Assembly: GCA_002494215.1 (NCBI GenBank)
Contig: DLBF01000082.1
Coordinates: 1 to 13,955 of the forward strand
Direction: 5' to 3'
Length of the DNA stretch: 13,955 nucleotides
From: Prevotellaceae bacterium UBA7028
GTDB lineage: Bacteria; Bacteroidota; Bacteroidia; Bacteroidales; Bacteroidaceae
Below, in pieces: positions 385-11,991 of the stretch. A program made the position numbers and the translations under genes. Positions within the stretch are counted from its first letter, which is position 1; the number at the start of each line of letters is the position of its first letter. A model generated the notes under the pieces. That model was not told the DNA's origin, searched no databases, and saw only the letters and a program-made list of their open reading frames with translations.

Positions 385-486
385 TATGGTCCATAATTAT
401 TTTTTTAATTCAAAATTCAAAATTGGGCTTTCCCCTTTGGGGGAGCGGGGAGAGGGGCCTTATTTTTCTCTTTTCTCTTTTAATTT
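385..486. other. lysC-lysA intergenic spacer made of repeat modules
   Basis: This 102-bp gap contains AT-rich direct repeats (AATTCAAAATTCAAAATT near 408-425), a GC-rich stretch (CCCCTTTGGGGGAGCGGGG, about 432-450) that can fold on itself, and one copy of the T-rich repeat against the lysC stop. I see no TAnnTTTG promoter for lysA here, so lysA probably reads through from lysC. Confidence 0.6.
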
Positions 487-493
487 TTAATTC
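462..493 (-). repeat. AT-rich dispersed repeat, copy A (3' end of lysC)
   Basis: On the gene-sense (minus) strand it reads AATTAAAAATTAAAAGAG followed by AAAAGAGAAAAAT, with two copies of the 7-bp unit AAAAGAG. The TAA stop of lysC (489-487) and its last Asn codon lie inside the repeat. It matches copy C inside hisH over about 32 bp with one clear substitution. Confidence 0.85.
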
Positions 494-1809
494 TGATTAA
501 AAAGGGTTTCACTTAATGCTTGCAGCGTGCGTTTTTTGTCTTCAGACTTAACCAGGAACGAGATGTTGTGGTTCGAACCTCCGTAGCTGATCATGCGAAC
601 GGGGATGTCCTTCAGCGCCTCGCAGGCCTTAGCCTCGAAACCAACGTTGTTAGAATCCAGGTCACCAACTACGCAGACGATGGTCATGTCATAGTCAACA
701 TTTACGGTACCGTACTTCTTCAGTTCGTCCAGGATATCTCCCAGTCGGCTTGAGTTGTCAATGGTAACTGATACGCCTACTTCGCTTGTGCAGATCATAT
801 CTACGCTGGTCTTGTAGGTCTCGAAGATTTCGAAAACCTTACGCAGGAAACCATAGGCCAGAAGCATACGGCTGCTGGTAATCTGAATGCAGATGTTGTT
901 GTCGCGTGCAGCTACAGCCTTTATCTTGCCTTTCTGGAATTCATTATTAATAATAGTACCTGGAGCCTCGGGAGCCATTGTGTTCAGCAAGCGAACGGGA
1001 ACGCCGGCAAATTTGGCGGGCTGGATGCAGGTGGGGTGCAGAATCTTGGCACCGAAGTAAGCCAACTCGGCAGCTTCCTCGAAGTGCAGCTGGCGAACGG
1101 GTTCTGTATGCTCTACGATACGTGGGTCGTTGTTGTGCATACCATCGATGTCCGTCCAGATCTGAATCTCCTCAGCCTGGATGGCAGCACCTATCAGGCA
1201 GGCTGTATAGTCAGAGCCGCCACGAAGCAGGTTGTCTATCTCGCCGTAGGCATTGCGGCAGATAAAGCCCTGTGTGATATAGATCTCATAGCCGTCGTTA
1301 TCCTTCAGTATCTGATTGCTCTTTTCCTTAATATAAAGGAAGTCGGGCTCAGCGTTCTTGTCTGTTCTTACCATATCCAGGGCATTCAGCAGGATGGCCT
1401 TCACACCGCATTCCTTCAGGTAGTTTGTTACCATATTGGTGCTGATGATTTCTCCCTGTGCCAGGACAACCTTCTCCTCGAACGAGGTGAAGTGAACCTT
1501 GGTAAACGAGCGCAGGTAGTTGAACTCATCACGTATGAAGGTTTCTGTCTCCTGCTTGTATTCGTCGGTCTTATAAAGATCCTTTACGTGCTGCAGGTAT
1601 TTCTCCTCCAGTCTGTTGATAAGCGTATTGGCACCTTCGGGGTTCTTCTTGTACAGGTAGTCTGAGATTTCTACCAATGTATTTGTCGTGCCTGACATTG
1701 CTGACAATACGACCAACTTTGTTTCTCCGTCTGCTGTTACCAGTTTCGAGACTTCTTGCATTCTTTGTGGCGTACCTACGGATGTACCGCCAAATTTCAG
1801 TACTTTCAT
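487..1809 (-). CDS. lysC: Aspartate kinase, monofunctional, with C-terminal ACT domains
   Basis: Phosphorylates L-aspartate to beta-aspartyl phosphate, the first committed step toward lysine/diaminopimelate, threonine and methionine. The 440-residue product starts with MKVLKFGGTSVG, the nucleotide-binding motif of amino acid kinases. LRGGSDYTACLIGAA near residue 195 and FGAKILHPTCIQPA near 255 are further family signatures. From about residue 300 the sequence is regulatory ACT-type, usual for feedback control by lysine or threonine; the actual effector cannot be read from the sequence. No homoserine dehydrogenase domain follows, so this is not a ThrA-type fusion. Its start lies 13 nt past the ftsE-like stop and lysA follows, consistent with one transcript. 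The final Asn and stop codon are supplied by dispersed repeat copy A. Confidence 0.95.
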   Translation of the reverse strand: MKVLKFGGTSVGTPQRMQEVSKLVTADGETKLVVLSAMSGTTNTLVEISDYLYKKNPEGANTLINRLEEKYLQHVKDLYKTDEYKQETETFIRDEFNYLRSFTKVHFTSFEEKVVLAQGEIISTNMVTNYLKECGVKAILLNALDMVRTDKNAEPDFLYIKEKSNQILKDNDGYEIYITQGFICRNAYGEIDNLLRGGSDYTACLIGAAIQAEEIQIWTDIDGMHNNDPRIVEHTEPVRQLHFEEAAELAYFGAKILHPTCIQPAKFAGVPVRLLNTMAPEAPGTIINNEFQKGKIKAVAARDNNICIQITSSRMLLAYGFLRKVFEIFETYKTSVDMICTSEVGVSVTIDNSSRLGDILDELKKYGTVNVDYDMTIVCVVGDLDSNNVGFEAKACEALKDIPVRMISYGGSNHNISFLVKSEDKKRTLQALSETLFNQN

Positions 1810-2566: not shown

Positions 2567-2619
2567 GAATTTATCAAATTTGAATTGAGAATTAATTTTT
2601 CTCTTTTAATTTTTAATTC
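2567..2619 (-). repeat. AT-rich dispersed repeat, copy B, long form (3' of hisIE)
   Basis: Starts 7 nt after the hisIE stop. It has one AAAAGAG unit where most copies have two. It shares the extension GAATTTATCAA...AATTGAGAATTAA (plus-strand reading) with copy E at 7227, so these two copies define a longer element of about 55-60 bp. Within the extension a TCAAATTTGA palindrome is present. Confidence 0.8.
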
Positions 2620-2626
2620 ATAATTA

Positions 2627-3241: not shown

Positions 3242-3993
3242 AATCTTACGTTTATCTTTTCTGCTCTTAAATATTCTTTCAGTTCGGGTATCCCTATCTC
3301 GCCAAAGTGGAATACGCTGGCTGCCAGTGCGGCATCTGCGTGTCCTATGGCAAAGGCATCGCGGAAGTGCTCCATGCATCCTGCTCCGCCGCTGGCTATC
3401 ACGGGGATGGTCAGCTCTTCGGCCAAGCGGGCCAGAGCTTCGTTGGCAAAGCCTGCTTTCACGCCGTCGTGGTTCATGCTGGTAAACAGAATCTCGCCGG
3501 CGCCTCTCTCGTTGGCCTCACGTGCCCACTCAAACAGACCGCGCTCCGTAGGGATTCGTCCTCCGTTCAGGTAGCAAGTCCATCCGTTCTCGTCCAGACG
3601 TGCATCTATGGCTACTACGCAAACCTGGCTGCCAAAGTTATAGGCTATTTCGTCTATCAGCTTGGGGTTACGAAGGGCAGCACTGTTTATGCTCACCTTA
3701 TCTGCTCCTGCCGACAGCATCTTATCTACATCTTTCAGTTCGCTGATTCCTCCTCCAACAGTAAAGGGGATGCTTACCTCGGCAGCCACGCGCTGCACCA
3801 TCTCGGTAAAGGTCTTTCGTCCCTCGTGGCTGGCTGTGATATCCAGGAATACCAGTTCGTCTGCTCCCTGTTCGCTATAGGCGCGTCCCAATGCTACAGG
3901 GTCGCCAGCTTGTCTCAGGTTTACGAAGTTGGTTCCTTTTACGGTTTGTCCGTCCTTAACGTCCAGGCAGGGTATGATTCGTTTTGCTAACAT
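3238..3993 (-). CDS. hisF: Imidazole glycerol phosphate synthase, cyclase subunit
   Basis: With HisH it converts PRFAR plus ammonia into imidazole glycerol phosphate and AICAR. The 251-residue (beta/alpha)8 barrel has the catalytic aspartates expected for HisF: D11 in [12 protein letters not shown] and the Asp in [13 protein letters not shown], close to residue 130. Phosphate-binding GGG and SGG motifs ([15 protein letters not shown]) mark the two half-barrels. [10 protein letters not shown] is another family hallmark. It overlaps hisA by 7 bp upstream and hisIE by 4 bp downstream, so it is in the middle of the coupled his set. Nothing is out of the ordinary in length or motifs. Confidence 0.97.
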
Positions 3994-4715
3994 GTTTGGG
4001 GGTACTTTTTTATCAGTTCTTTCAGGTCTATGCGACCCTCGTAAATGGCTTTGCCGAATACTACGGCAGGGATGCCAGCTTCCTCCAGCGCCACTATGTC
4101 CTCTATGCAGCTAACGCCGCCGCTGGCGATAAGGTGGCAGTTGGGGTGAGCCTTCATAACTCGCTTGTATAGGTCAACGGCAGTTCCCTGCAACATGCCG
4201 TCTCTGCTAATCTCTGTGCAGAGCACGTTGCGTGTGCCCGCTTTCATATATCGGGTCAGGAAGTCGGTCAGTTCCACGTCGCTGTCTTCCAGCCATCCGT
4301 TTATGCTAACCTTGCCATTGCGCACGTCGGCGCCTAAGATTAGATGCTCGGCACCATATTTCTGTAGCCATTCTAGATATAGCTCGGGATTTGTAACGGC
4401 TATGCTGCCTGCTGTTACTAATGTTGCTCCAGCATCGTAGGCCTTCTTCAGGTCGTCTTCTGTCTTCACACCGCCTCCGAAATCCACCGTCAGGTTTGTT
4501 GCCTGGGTGATAGCCTTCAGGGTGGCGTCATTCACCACATGCTTGCTCTTGGCGCCGTCCAAGTCCACCACATGCAGGCGCTTGAATCCCAGCTGCTCAA
4601 ATTCTTTGGCCATACTTACGGGGTCACCGTACTCCTTCTTGGTGGAGTAGTCACCCTTGGTAAGTCGGACACATTTTCCGCCTATTATGTCTATGGCAGG
4701 AATCAGTTCTATCAT
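3987..4715 (-). CDS. hisA: ProFAR isomerase (1-(5-phosphoribosyl)-5-[(5-phosphoribosylamino)methylideneamino]imidazole-4-carboxamide isomerase)
   Basis: Amadori isomerase of step 4 of histidine synthesis, making PRFAR from ProFAR. The 242-residue barrel begins [18 protein letters not shown] with the catalytic Asp at residue 9, and has the second half-barrel Asp in [17 protein letters not shown]. The phosphate-binding segments are VDFGGGVKT and IASGGVS. It is homologous to HisF, but the [13 protein letters not shown] start and GDY segment distinguish HisA. The start codon overlaps the hisH stop by 4 bp (ATGA) and the end overlaps hisF by 7 bp. Confidence 0.97.
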
Positions 4716-5347
4716 AGTTCCAGAAAATTCTTTATGATACGTTCGCCCACGCTTCCACTTTTCTCGGGGTGGAACTGTGTGGCATAGAAGTTATCCTTGT
4801 GCAAGGCTGCACTATAGGGTAGGATGTAGTCGGTAATTGCAATGGTGTTTTCGCATACAGGAACATAGAAGCTGTGTACGAAATACACAAACTCGCCCTC
4901 CGAAAATCCCTTAAACAGACCACTCTCTACGAGTGATAATTTTTCTCTTTTCTCTTTTAATTTTTCATTCTGAGCAAAGCTCAACTGGTTCCATCCCATG
5001 TGAGGCACCTTGTCCTCATGCTTCTGAGGCTGGAAACGCAGCACATCCACATCGAAGATACCCAGGCAATCCGTGTCGCCCTCTTCGCTGTGGCGGCACA
5101 TCAACTGCTGACCTATGCAGATGCCCAAGATGGGATTCTTCAGGTCGCGGATTACCTTGTCCAGGTTATGTTCCTTTAGGTAGCGCATGGCATTGCTTGC
5201 CTCGCCTTGTCCAGGGAATAGTACTTTGTCTGCTTTCTGTAGCTCTTCAGAATTGTCTGTCAGAACGGGTGTTACCCCCAGTCTCTGAAGGGCGTGGATT
5301 ACGGAATATATGTTTCCTGCGTTGTATTTTACTACTGCAACTTTCAT
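4712..5347 (-). CDS. hisH: Imidazole glycerol phosphate synthase, glutamine amidotransferase subunit, with a repeat-derived insertion
   Basis: Class I glutamine amidotransferase that supplies ammonia to HisF. The start at 5347 (MKVAVVKYNAGN) fits the family; an upstream in-frame ATG at 5398 would lie before the promoter. The catalytic triad is complete: C77 in GICIGQQL, H193 and E195 in QFHPEKSG. The product has 211 residues. About 15 residues from N127 to V140, rich in Lys/Glu (NEKLKEKREKLSL), lie between HMGWNQL and GLFKGF, where from memory HisH proteins of Bacteroides have a short turn. The DNA coding for this insertion is AT-rich repeat copy C. The frame stays open because the TAA found at this position in copy A is GAA here. 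It is the first gene of the coupled hisH-hisA-hisF-hisIE set. Confidence 0.95.
   Translation of the reverse strand: MKVAVVKYNAGNIYSVIHALQRLGVTPVLTDNSEELQKADKVLFPGQGEASNAMRYLKEHNLDKVIRDLKNPILGICIGQQLMCRHSEEGDTDCLGIFDVDVLRFQPQKHEDKVPHMGWNQLSFAQNEKLKEKREKLSLVESGLFKGFSEGEFVYFVHSFYVPVCENTIAITDYILPYSAALHKDNFYATQFHPEKSGSVGERIIKNFLEL
4938..4970 (-). repeat. AT-rich dispersed repeat, copy C, inside the hisH coding sequence
   Basis: Nearly identical to copy A (T-rich on the plus strand, two AAAAGAG units on the sense strand). It lies in frame in hisH with CAG AAT before it, exactly as in lysC. Plus-strand base 4966 is c where copy A has a, turning TAA into GAA at hisH codon 128. Confidence 0.9.
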
Positions 5348-5399: not shown

Positions 5400-5603
5400 G
5401 AAAAACAAGTTTTTTCTTTTATTCCCGAGTGTAAGTACCTTGTTTCGATATCTCGAAATCACGATATCTCGAAATCACGATAAACCGCTAACCGCTAACC
5501 GCTCAACAGTGTCTGATGTAAGATGTCTGATGTCTGATGTTCGTTAACCGCTAACCGCTCAACAGTAAACTTAACTTTTCTCTTTTCTCTTTTAATTTTT
5601 AAT
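5400..5603. repeat. Repeat cluster between the ModF-like gene and hisH
   Basis: This gap of about 200 bp has no gene and is almost wholly repeats. In order: a 16-bp direct repeat CGATATCTCGAAATCA twice (5446-5461, 5462-5477) plus the first 5 bases of a third; a CGCTAACC array ending in CTCAACAGT (5483-5510); TCTGATGT three times with a related AAGATGT (about 5512-5540); a second copy of AACCGCTAACCGCTCAACAG (5546-5565), matching 5490-5509 exactly; and AT-rich copy D (5575-5603). Confidence 0.8.
5575..5603 (-). repeat. AT-rich dispersed repeat, copy D (3' of the ModF-like gene)
   Basis: Two AAAAGAG units. It begins 12 nt after the stop codon of the ModF-like gene, directly beyond the hairpin at 5604-5632, and keeps the same orientation to the gene as the other copies. 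Confidence 0.8.
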
Positions 5604-5632
5604 TTAAGAAAAACGCTAATCGTTTTTCTTAA
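5604..5632 (-). terminator. Perfect 12-bp inverted repeat over the stop codon of the ModF-like gene
   Basis: Arms TTAAGAAAAACG (5604-5615) and CGTTTTTCTTAA (5621-5632) are exact reverse complements around a 5-nt loop that contains the TAG stop (5618-5616). On the transcript it is followed by A-rich repeat RNA, not a U-run, so it is not a standard intrinsic terminator. It may be a 3'-end stabilising or terminating hairpin. Confidence 0.5.
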
Positions 5633-7226: not shown

Positions 7227-7287
7227 GAATTTATCAATTTTTAATTGAGAATTAATTTTTCTCTTTTCTCTTTTAATTTTTAATTCA
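7227..7287 (-). repeat. AT-rich dispersed repeat, copy E, long form (3' end of ruvC)
   Basis: Shares the GAATTTATCAA...AATTGAGAATTAA extension with copy B, but has two AAAAGAG units where B has one. The last Asn codon and TAA stop of ruvC (7282-7280) lie within it. Confidence 0.85.
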
Positions 7288-7840
7288 GGCCTCTGGTCTT
7301 CTCTTTGTTCTTCGCCACAAAGTCTTTCCACGAGCGGTACTTCTTTTCTGTCTGTGGACGGTTCATTTGCAGATAGTGGCAATAGGCGGCTCCTAAGGCG
7401 TCTGTGGCGTCCAGGAACTTACCCAGTTCCTCCTTGTCCAGCTTAAGCATGCGTCGCAGCATGTCAGCCACCTGCTCCTTGCTGGCATTGCCGTTGCCCG
7501 TGATGGCCATTTTAATTTTCGTGGGAGCATATTCCGTTATCGGCACCTGCCTGTTTATGGCAGCAGCCATGGCCGTACCCTGTGCACGTCCCAGCTTCAG
7601 CATACTCTGCACGTTCTTGCCAAAGAAAGGAGCCTCTATGGCCATCTCGTCGGGCAAGTAAGACTCTATGATGCCGCTCACACGCTCGAAGATGTGTCCC
7701 AGCTTCAGGTAGTGGTCGGCATACTTACGCAGATCTATAACGCCCAGCGCCAGCATTTCCGTTGTGTGGTCCGTTACCTTCAGTACGCCATATCCCATGA
7801 TGTTGGTACCGGGGTCTATGCCAAGGATTATCTTTTCCAA
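7280..7840 (-). CDS. ruvC: Crossover junction endodeoxyribonuclease RuvC
   Basis: Resolves Holliday junctions together with RuvAB. I choose a TTG start at 7840, giving 186 residues beginning (M)EKIILGIDPGTN. The longer ATG-started frame (from 7951 or 7933) would run through the promoter box at 7869-7876 and add residues foreign to the family. The four acidic residues are present: D9 in GIDPGTN, E69 in AIEAPFFGKN, and the two Asp of DATDALGAAYCH. The usual length is about 170-190, which fits the TTG start. No ruvA or ruvB is adjacent. It is transcribed divergently from the DUF1573 gene. Its last Asn and stop come from repeat copy E. Confidence 0.92.
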   Translation of the reverse strand: MEKIILGIDPGTNIMGYGVLKVTDHTTEMLALGVIDLRKYADHYLKLGHIFERVSGIIESYLPDEMAIEAPFFGKNVQSMLKLGRAQGTAMAAAINRQVPITEYAPTKIKMAITGNGNASKEQVADMLRRMLKLDKEELGKFLDATDALGAAYCHYLQMNRPQTEKKYRSWKDFVAKNKEKTRGLN

Positions 7841-8490: not shown

Positions 8491-8540
8491 GTGTGTAAGT
8501 ATGAAAAAAGAGGGCTGGCAATTCTGTCAGTCCTCCTTTT

Positions 8541-8641
8541 GGTTTCAAGTTTCAGAGGTCTTCGACCTTGGTTTCAAGTTTCAGAGGTCTTCGACCTTGG
8601 TTTCAGGTTTCAGAGGTCTTCGACCTTGGTTTCAAGTTTCA
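8541..8641. repeat. 29-bp tandem repeat, about 3.5 units
   Basis: Units at 8541-8569, 8570-8598, 8599-8627 and a partial one at 8628-8641. The unit begins GGTTTCAAGTTTCAGAGG and ends TCTTCGACCTT. Unit 3 has one change (g for a at 8606). Each unit contains AGGTC-TTC-GACCT, a 5-bp inverted repeat able to form a small hairpin. 29 is not a multiple of 3, so copy-number change would shift any frame crossing it. Confidence 0.95.
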
Positions 8642-10625: not shown

Positions 10626-10722
10626 GATTTATAGTGTTTAAATGTTATTTTTATTGTTTTAACCGGACCGCTTCGCTACTCCGGGGTGGTATCGCTAACC
10701 GCTAACCGATAATTTTTCTCTT
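10626..10722. other. tilS-zinc ribbon gene spacer with repeat modules
   Basis: Contains a GC-rich segment CCGGACCGCTTCGCTACTCCGG (about 10663-10683) with CCGGA/TCCGG arms, a CGCTAACCGCTAACCG unit (10693-10708) and part of AT-rich copy F. The order CGCTAACC unit then AT-rich repeat is the same as at 5546-5603. Confidence 0.6.
10693..10708 (+). repeat. CGCTAACCGCTAACCG module
   Basis: Two CGCTAACC units, matching the arrays at 5483-5503 and 5546-5560, and abutting AT-rich copy F as at 5546-5603. Confidence 0.75.
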
Positions 10723-10739
10723 TTAATTTTTCTCTTTTA
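10709..10739 (-). repeat. AT-rich dispersed repeat, copy F (3' end of tilS)
   Basis: A variant with two AAAAGAG units separated by AAAAATT (plus strand: AATTTTTCTCTTTT then AATTTTTCTCTTTT). It codes for the last residues of TilS (KEKN) and its TAA stop (10725-10723). Confidence 0.8.
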
Positions 10740-11991
10740 TCTTAAACCTGACGATTCGTCGGGTTTTGTTGTCCACTCTGTATCTGTTGTCGGAGCGGTG
10801 GCCGACTACCCAGATGATGTCTTCTCCACATAGGGCGAGGAGTTGATGTTCTTTTTCAAAACGTGTTGCCTTTATGTCTGTGAGATAATCACTTATGAGT
10901 TTCTTTCCTTTCATGCCGAAGGGTACGAACCAATCACCTTCCTTGGCTATACGATAGGTGATGGGAGAGGTTAGTTTGTCCTTGTCGAAATAGGCTATCT
11001 GGGGCCCTGTTTCGGTGATGGACTCGACCTCCTCTTGGGTGATTTCTATCTCCTCGGGATGGCTGTCTCTCTCTTGTAGTATCAGCCTGTCTCTGTCCTT
11101 CAGCATCCTGTGCGAACGGCTCTCCCATATCTTGCCAGAGGTGCTGTCCAACGATTCGGAAATCTCCCTTAGTTGTGCGTTGGTGAACCCGTTGTCCTTC
11201 AACCACTCGTAGAGTAGGATGTCCGTCTTTCTGCTTCCTTGCAGCAGGGAGATGTTCATCTCGTTCTTGTTGACGAGAACCTTCTGCAGCTCCTCCTGCA
11301 CGGCTTTCTGGTAAAGGGGTAGGCTTTCTGTCATAATCGAACAGGTGTCGGAGAGCGTGCCGATGATGTTGGGGTTTATCTGTGCCAATAGGGGGAGCAC
11401 ATCCAGGCGAATCTTGTTCCTTGTTGCCTCCCGCTCGAGATTCGTGCTATCCGTTACATAGTCTTGGTTCATCTGAGCAAGGAAGGACATAATCTCGTCT
11501 CTGGTTACGCAGAGCAGGGGGCGAGCAACCTTGTTGCGCAGGGGATACATTCCTGCCAGTCCCCTAATGCCTGTTCCCCTAACGAGGTTCAGCAGCAGGG
11601 TTTCTGCCTGATCGTTCTTGTGATGAGCCACAGCAATGCACTGTGCGTGAGTTGCCGTCATCTCCTCGTGGAACCAGTCGTAACGGAGGTCACGGGCTGC
11701 CATCTCTATGCTGATGTTATGCTGACTGGCATATTCCCTGGTATTGAAGTGGCGTGTCAGCAGAGGGATGTCCCTTTGGCGGCAAAGTTCAGATACGAAC
11801 CTCTCGTCGCGATCGGATTCTTCGCCTCGGAGGTGGAAATTACAATGCAGCGCCTGAATCGTGTAGCCCAGTTGTTGTAAGACAATGAGCAAGGCAACGG
11901 AATCTGCCCCTCCGCTTACACCAACCAGCACCAGCTCTTGCTGGCTGAGGATTTGGTTTGACTGTATGTATTTCCTTACCTTCTCAATCAT
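10723..11991 (-). CDS. tilS: tRNA(Ile)-lysidine synthetase
   Basis: Essential enzyme that attaches lysine to C34 of the CAU-anticodon tRNA(Ile), so that it reads AUA codons. The 422-residue protein has the PP-loop VGVSGGADSVALL (ATP site SGGADS, 26-31), the HCNFHLRGEESDRDE segment, VAHHKNDQAETLLLNLVRGTGIRGL, and the middle and C-terminal domains of full-length TilS. The start ATG at 11991 overlaps the TPR gene stop by 4 bp (ATGA), implying coupled translation. The C-terminus RFKIKEKN is partly encoded by dispersed repeat copy F, so the final four or five residues are probably not conserved. Confidence 0.95.
   Translation of the reverse strand: MIEKVRKYIQSNQILSQQELVLVGVSGGADSVALLIVLQQLGYTIQALHCNFHLRGEESDRDERFVSELCRQRDIPLLTRHFNTREYASQHNISIEMAARDLRYDWFHEEMTATHAQCIAVAHHKNDQAETLLLNLVRGTGIRGLAGMYPLRNKVARPLLCVTRDEIMSFLAQMNQDYVTDSTNLEREATRNKIRLDVLPLLAQINPNIIGTLSDTCSIMTESLPLYQKAVQEELQKVLVNKNEMNISLLQGSRKTDILLYEWLKDNGFTNAQLREISESLDSTSGKIWESRSHRMLKDRDRLILQERDSHPEEIEITQEEVESITETGPQIAYFDKDKLTSPITYRIAKEGDWFVPFGMKGKKLISDYLTDIKATRFEKEHQLLALCGEDIIWVVGHRSDNRYRVDNKTRRIVRFKIKEKN

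Follow-up and report, generated by a model that had tools for sequence, protein, structure and literature searches.

Gene content and features of the window

The window, by which the whole stretch of 13,955 nucleotides that was analysed is meant, is a Bacteroidales chromosome stretch from a gut or rumen bacterium, and the relatives of its HisH protein are named as Bacteroidaceae/Prevotellaceae MAGs. The genes on its minus strand are lysC, an ABC gene, hisI(E), hisF, hisA, hisH, a gene for a second ABC protein, and ruvC; the names of the his genes other than hisH were assigned from position and from homology to the loci fetched for comparison. The start codon of hisH is the ATG at 5347 on the minus strand. 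The features are listed below, where L002 is a locus from a related genome.

3987..4715, minus strand: hisA, with a 4-base overlap with the hisH stop
4712..5347 (stop included), minus strand: hisH, imidazole glycerol phosphate synthase glutaminase subunit, 211 aa (TIGR01855 profile and ORF)
4919..4981, minus strand: expanded loop segment, hisH codons 123-143 SFAQNEKLKEKREKLSLVESG (comparison with L002)
4937..4972, minus strand: repeat module in hisH, codons 126-137 QNEKLKEKREKL, a period-7 array (sequence comparison)
460..495, minus strand: module copy at the lysC end, with the lysC stop TAA inside the module
2586..2621, minus strand: shorter intergenic copy, 75% identity to the reference copy
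5572..5607, minus strand: intergenic copy between hisH and the ABC gene that follows it in coordinate
7253..7288, minus strand: module copy at the ruvC end, with the ruvC stop TAA inside; its core is that of hisH
10710..10745, minus strand: rearranged intergenic copy, 75%
406..425, no strand assigned: period-7 array of a different unit, AATTCAA
5482..5505, no strand assigned: period-7 array, CGCTAAC unit
5521..5541, no strand assigned: period-7 array, ATGTCTG unit
10693..10712, no strand assigned: period-7 array, CGCTAAC unit

The hisH product

The product of hisH was placed with HisH, a class I glutamine amidotransferase, by its profile, its Cys-His-Glu residues, and its fold. In the profile search, TIGR01855 was matched at 194.9 bits against a cut-off of 105.4, and residues C77, H193, and E195, which we take to be the Cys-His-Glu triad, were invariant in 65 aligned HisH sequences. 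The predicted model, with a mean pLDDT of 89.9, shows the HisH fold and matches 4gud with a TM of 0.86/0.92. A helix at residues 125-132 and coil to residue 152 lie between strands at 118-123 and 153-156, so that the insert appears in the predicted structure as a short helix plus coil flanked by two strands; in the alignment to the Vibrio cholerae HisH (4gud), 14 window residues are unpaired at this loop. The frame is open through the insert and the gene is under purifying selection, with 50 synonymous and 8 nonsynonymous codon differences between the window and L002 when the insert is excluded. Judged from the sequence and the model, the window HisH looks functional, as had been proposed in the initial annotation, whose statements that the triad is kept and that hisH is coupled to hisA are in line with the invariant residues and the 4-base overlap.

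The repeat module

The initial annotation held that an intergenic repeat is read as coding sequence in hisH, and this was borne out, since the hisH module and the copy at the lysC end share 34 of 36 bases and are read in one and the same frame. The Lys/Glu-rich stretch of HisH is repeat-derived as claimed, but it spans codons 126-137 rather than 127-140, and to the one coding difference first recorded (TAA, the lysC stop, against GAA in hisH, at base 4966) a second has to be added in the last codon (base 4938). The repeat is the same as that at the gene ends; it is, however, a period-7 array and not simply AT-rich, being composed of mixed 7-base units in the order AATTAAA twice, AGAGAAA twice, and a final AATT. 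A search with the 28-base core, allowing up to 3 mismatches, gave 4 matches in the window against an expected 0.00, and none in 200 dinucleotide-preserving shuffles. The hisH core and the core at 7254-7281 are identical at 28 of 28 bases. For the window species, module copies were counted within 14 kb.

Eight period-7 arrays were found in the window, with at least three different units besides those of the module, and no arrays at periods 5, 6, 8, or 9. The window module contains no hairpin or palindrome, and its folding does not surpass that of shuffled sequence (z 1.07 and 0.60). No match to Rfam was found for the window and the four loci searched. With up to 3 mismatches, the module occurred at 9 places in 4 of 19 other genomes, and the exact module was found in none of the viral contigs; because the exact module is rare in other genomes, it would be a young, lineage-bound repeat type.

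Both the lysC and the ruvC stop codon (window 480-490 and 7280-7285) belong to module copies, and gene ends therefore absorb the module, as the HisH loop does. Another repeat, TTGGTTTCAAGTTTCAGAGGTCTTCGACC, of 29 bases, is present in three tandem copies in the spacer at 8539-8641.

The HisH loop in related genomes

HisH proteins were compared using the best 120 of 7,999 scored, and loci using the best 80 loci of related genomes listed, which together with the window gave 81 HisH sequences. Between the GWN motif and YFVH, the window has 34 residues and 58 of the 120 relatives listed have 19, so the window loop is about 15 residues longer, in agreement with the insert size first estimated. The peptide KLKEK[RG]EKL was present in 27 of the 120 listed proteins, all of them with 92% or higher identity to the window protein, which bears out the prediction that the insert would be confined to the window and its close relatives. 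The case that would have counted against it, the same insert in a distant HisH whose genome lacks the repeat, was sought and was absent from the 120 listed proteins and the 80 loci. The closest of the 80 fetched loci by HisH, HisA, and HisF (L002, 96% over 668 columns) is without the insert, and its counterpart of hisH codons 123-143 consists of six residues, ENPTSE.

The segment from GWN to YFVHS is 19 residues long in 37 of the 81 sequences and longer than 20 in 36, with a maximum of 57. Internal insertions in HisH fall nearly all within this loop: 374 residues are inserted after one core column, at which 33 of the 81 sequences have at least 4 inserted residues, and a further 31 and 31 at two other loop columns, the remainder being 54 at the C-terminus and one residue elsewhere. 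HisA has only C-terminal extensions and no internal insertions, and HisF has a weaker loop insertion site, which is occupied in 5 of 79 sequences. This second, weaker insertion loop of HisF follows AIDA[KR] in L023, L046, L029, L069, and L045; the HisF of L023 contains a tandem repeat of the seven residues SDTGIGN.

The HisH inserts comprise heptamer arrays (ACAATGG, AGCAAGG, AAAGTTG, ATCAATC, and others), GC-rich palindromic repeats (L061 and L027), the sequence found in the HisH of genome G012 (the G012 sequence), and a 75-base element (P0048, P0063, and P0098, and with a change P0052). No recognised repeat was matched in several other longer loops, such as those of L015, L019, L038, L068, L075, and L076.

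Insert turnover was followed on a tree of HisH minus the loop plus HisA and HisF (79 rows, quick LG+G4 search), with an insert scored as present when the segment was at least 23 residues. At least 17 changes in insert presence were required on this tree, and the repeats found in sister rows are unrelated to one another (L023/L046, L032/L074, and L009/L010/L058). The window and L002 were grouped with a support of 94. The empty L002 loop could be a loss after an older gain, because L001 and L004 carry short inserts as well, with a related start (SFxQNEELKPL). The initial annotation had concluded that the repeat can be tolerated within genes; this is supported, but too narrow, since unrelated repeats occupy the same loop in other species and the loop is therefore a recurrent site rather than the place of one event.

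Period-7 arrays in coding and noncoding DNA

Array densities were determined in 17 genomes picked for a HisH insert (16 of the 36 loci with segments over 20 residues, plus G051), and DNA was divided into coding and noncoding with a crude ORF map based on the longest ORFs of at least 90 aa. There were 82 period-7 arrays in 163 kb of noncoding DNA (50.2 per 100 kb) and 41 in 1,339 kb of coding DNA (3.1 per 100 kb), and noncoding arrays of other periods (4 to 12) amounted to 0 to 8.0 per 100 kb.

In the 81 hisH genes, 13 period-7 arrays from 11 loci were found under a loose criterion and 5 under a strict one, and all of them (13/13 and 5/5) lie in the loop; seven other periods gave 1 array in hisH under the loose criterion and 0 under the strict. 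The corresponding loose and strict counts for period 7 were 0 and 0 in hisF and 4 and 0 in hisA. Three hisA arrays seen at an intermediate criterion are at the 3' end (L023, L036, and L046). As the loops total 1,961 residues (5,883 bases), 5 strict arrays correspond to about 85 per 100 kb, and the loop is as dense in arrays as spacer DNA. The unit was open in the sense direction in 4 of the 5 long hisH arrays and in 57 of 164 noncoding array strands, a comparison based on few cases.

The idea that a larger supply of arrays leads to more HisH inserts was dropped. Local arrays were more numerous at loci with an insert than at loci without (54 in 489 kb vs 32 in 684 kb, Mann-Whitney p 0.003), but arrays of the control periods rose in the same comparison (25 vs 14), and independent tree pairs were unsupportive, 2.2 being in favour and 4.6 against, of 10.

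Comparison of inserts with noncoding DNA of the same genome

A matrix test set 17 inserts against noncoding samples drawn from the 17 genomes that carry them; its coding column, which was 0 for two genomes, was excluded from use. The mean rank of the own genome was 0.28 (expected 0.5; permutation p 0.0004), nine inserts being in the best 12% and four of the 17 (G001, G009, G016, and G018) below the middle. Counts of individual repeats across whole genomes agreed in part; array hits overlap and are not independent places, and the counts include the hisH copy of the own genome. Of 22 genomes, the top two for ACAATGG (62 and 49 hits; next 22; reversed-pattern control 0) are the two with ACAATGG in HisH. 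For AGCAAGG, the highest count was that of its own genome, G017 (79; next 35), and G002 had 35 AGCAAGG-type hits, yet its HisH is without an insert. The G012 sequence occurred in 3 of the 22 genomes, with 9 copies in G012 and 15 in its sister G017. The AAAGTTG search was excluded as evidence, its reversed-pattern control not being clean. Within single loci (16 kb per genome), the longest noncoding match reached at least 16 bases only for the window, L012, L023, and L032; a 17-base match in L061 is in DNA called coding by the ORF map.

The 75-base hairpin element

The 75-base element was traced from a peptide shared by some of the HisH inserts. It was matched in six-frame translation in 46 of 139 congeners and at the DNA level in at least 92 of 399 genomes of the family, a lower bound, as usually two candidates per genome were scored. 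With the structure written after the copies had been viewed, and 23 of 29 copies used, 96.4% of the pairs of its three hairpins are kept, and 32 cells were changed on both sides vs 9.6 in shuffles and no more than 9 in slid structures; the hairpins thus covary. The fold energy of the element is ordinary (z -0.52). Direct tandem copies were seen in L040 (15394-15545) and in L165 (near 1660).

In 19 of 32 copies of the element the two flanks share 6 or all 7 of 7 bases, and flank agreement is best at exactly 7 bases (0.72, vs 0.34 or less at 5, 6, 8, and 9), because the element sits inside period-7 arrays. Among copies with non-array flanks, 1 of 9 agreed at 5 or more of 7 bases, so target duplication was unsupported. 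The proposal that the arrays are target-duplication footprints of the element was dropped, since insertion into any period-7 array gives 7-base agreement.

Of eleven ORFs (150 aa or longer) that span copies of the element, nine were scanned with Pfam. Domains of the DHDPS family, glutamate synthase, Schlafen AlbA_2/RecG-like, two C_GCAxxG_C_C proteins, and CobD/CbiB were found around the element or on both sides of it, and those of sigma-70, ImpB/MucB, and FecR_C proteins on one side only. Conserved genes with in-frame copies, in either orientation, belong to L238, L241, L225, L370, L373, L374, and others.

Origin of the insert

The hisH stretch is probably an in-frame copy of a dispersed intergenic heptanucleotide module, kept as protein in a permissive loop that receives such inserts recurrently. 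Recombination or template switching may have taken place between repeat arrays, or repeat-bearing DNA may have been inserted; either way, the module would have been copied in frame from intergenic DNA into hisH, a direction that we infer. The permissive loop would be that bounded by the GWN motif and the YFVHS strand, in which related Bacteroidales appear to have gained, lost, and swapped different intergenic repeats, namely period-7 arrays of several units, GC-rich palindromic repeats, and the 75-base hairpin element. Selection would purge inserts that shift the frame, add a stop, or damage the fold, and would tolerate short, open, mostly polar ones, the insert itself being probably near-neutral.

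It is unlikely that the stretch arose locally, with Lys/Glu codons growing by replication slippage in a tolerant loop and the intergenic likeness reflecting convergence on simple 7-base units. Loop length does vary across many species, some loops are without a match to any known repeat, and heptanucleotide repeats of other organisms are described as slippage-prone in PMC4679880. However, the module shares the order and number of its units with separate intergenic copies, over 28 of 28 bases in one case, and two different units recurring in the same order and number at several places make independent slippage hard to credit. The non-tandem elements in the loop (the 75-base element and the G012 sequence) are beyond slippage, and the likeness of inserts to their own genomes (p 0.0004) argues against a local origin as well.

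Recruitment of the extra residues for a selected function, such as tuning HisH or its contact with HisF, is very improbable. The insert is fixed within the species, across 26 near-identical proteins, and includes the predicted helix at 125-132, but the inserts of sister species are unrelated in sequence and length, L002, the closest row on the tree, is without an insert, and within the species the insert is not more conserved than the rest of the protein (4 of 21 insert columns vary vs 12 of 190 elsewhere, Fisher p 0.06). An assembly artefact or a broken gene can be practically dismissed: the sources are mostly metagenome assemblies, in which repeats are prone to misassembly, but the same insert is found in the 27 listed proteins on many contigs (P0002 alone on 21, and P0003 on a 426 kb contig), and the frame is open and under purifying selection.

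Copying of intergenic repeats into hisH thus remains the preferred reading, and the HisH loop looks like a recurrent landing site at which spacer DNA is turned into protein. A broader proposal, to which we give about even chances, is that the loop is a standing entry port of Bacteroidales genomes, through which arrays and the nested 75-base element, having spread in spacers, enter repeatedly; their exchange between species would outpace the divergence of the enzyme, the loop recording the repeats active in each lineage. The loop, with one site, many independent inserts, and known empty relatives, offers a natural replicated experiment on the passage of noncoding repeats into protein, and in uncultured bacteria of the gut and rumen it could be read as a record of repeat activity. 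It also serves as a warning that low-complexity stretches rich in Lys/Glu or Gly/Asn in such proteins may stem from repeat DNA instead of reflecting conserved function.

Comparison with known systems

A literature search of a partial collection gave no report of HisH inserts or of the 75-base element. The STRR of cyanobacteria are heptanucleotide tandem repeats that are mainly intergenic and species-specific, and the repeats described here resemble them in both their seven-base tandem units and their preference for noncoding DNA. According to PMC4679880, the TAACTGA heptanucleotide repeats are likewise mainly intergenic and species-specific, the reading of an array is limited by stop codons, and coding insertion would usually be harmful. 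The present case differs from STRR and from TAACTGA in that several unit types occur per genome and an array is kept in the loop of a conserved enzyme.

MITEs/REP and ERIC/RU are small non-autonomous repeats, some of them fused in frame to genes, according to PMC2229807. The window module differs from MITEs in having no terminal inverted repeats, and the 75-base element in having no supported target duplication.

The Rickettsia palindromic elements (RPE; Ogata et al. 2000) are palindromes of 105-146 bp described in 19 genes, and are dispersed noncoding repeats that are also tolerated in frame in conserved protein genes, as given in the review PMC2229807. The window repeat is similar in being dispersed and mostly intergenic and in having a copy in frame within hisH, a conserved gene that appears from its sequence to be expressed; it differs in being a 36-base heptanucleotide array with no hairpin, rather than a palindrome with terminal inverted repeats. 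RPE are spread over 19 genes in that account, whereas here one loop of one enzyme has received many unrelated repeats. By description, the closest RPE analogue is the 75-base hairpin element, of which in-frame copies occur in several gene families; by this analogy it is the putative Bacteroidales counterpart of the Rickettsia coding repeats of PMC2229807, and it would carry the Rickettsia-type protein-coding repeat over to Bacteroidales. What is new is the heptanucleotide nature of the units and the acceptance of many unrelated repeats by one loop, and the nearest known kind is that of the Rickettsia protein-coding repeats.
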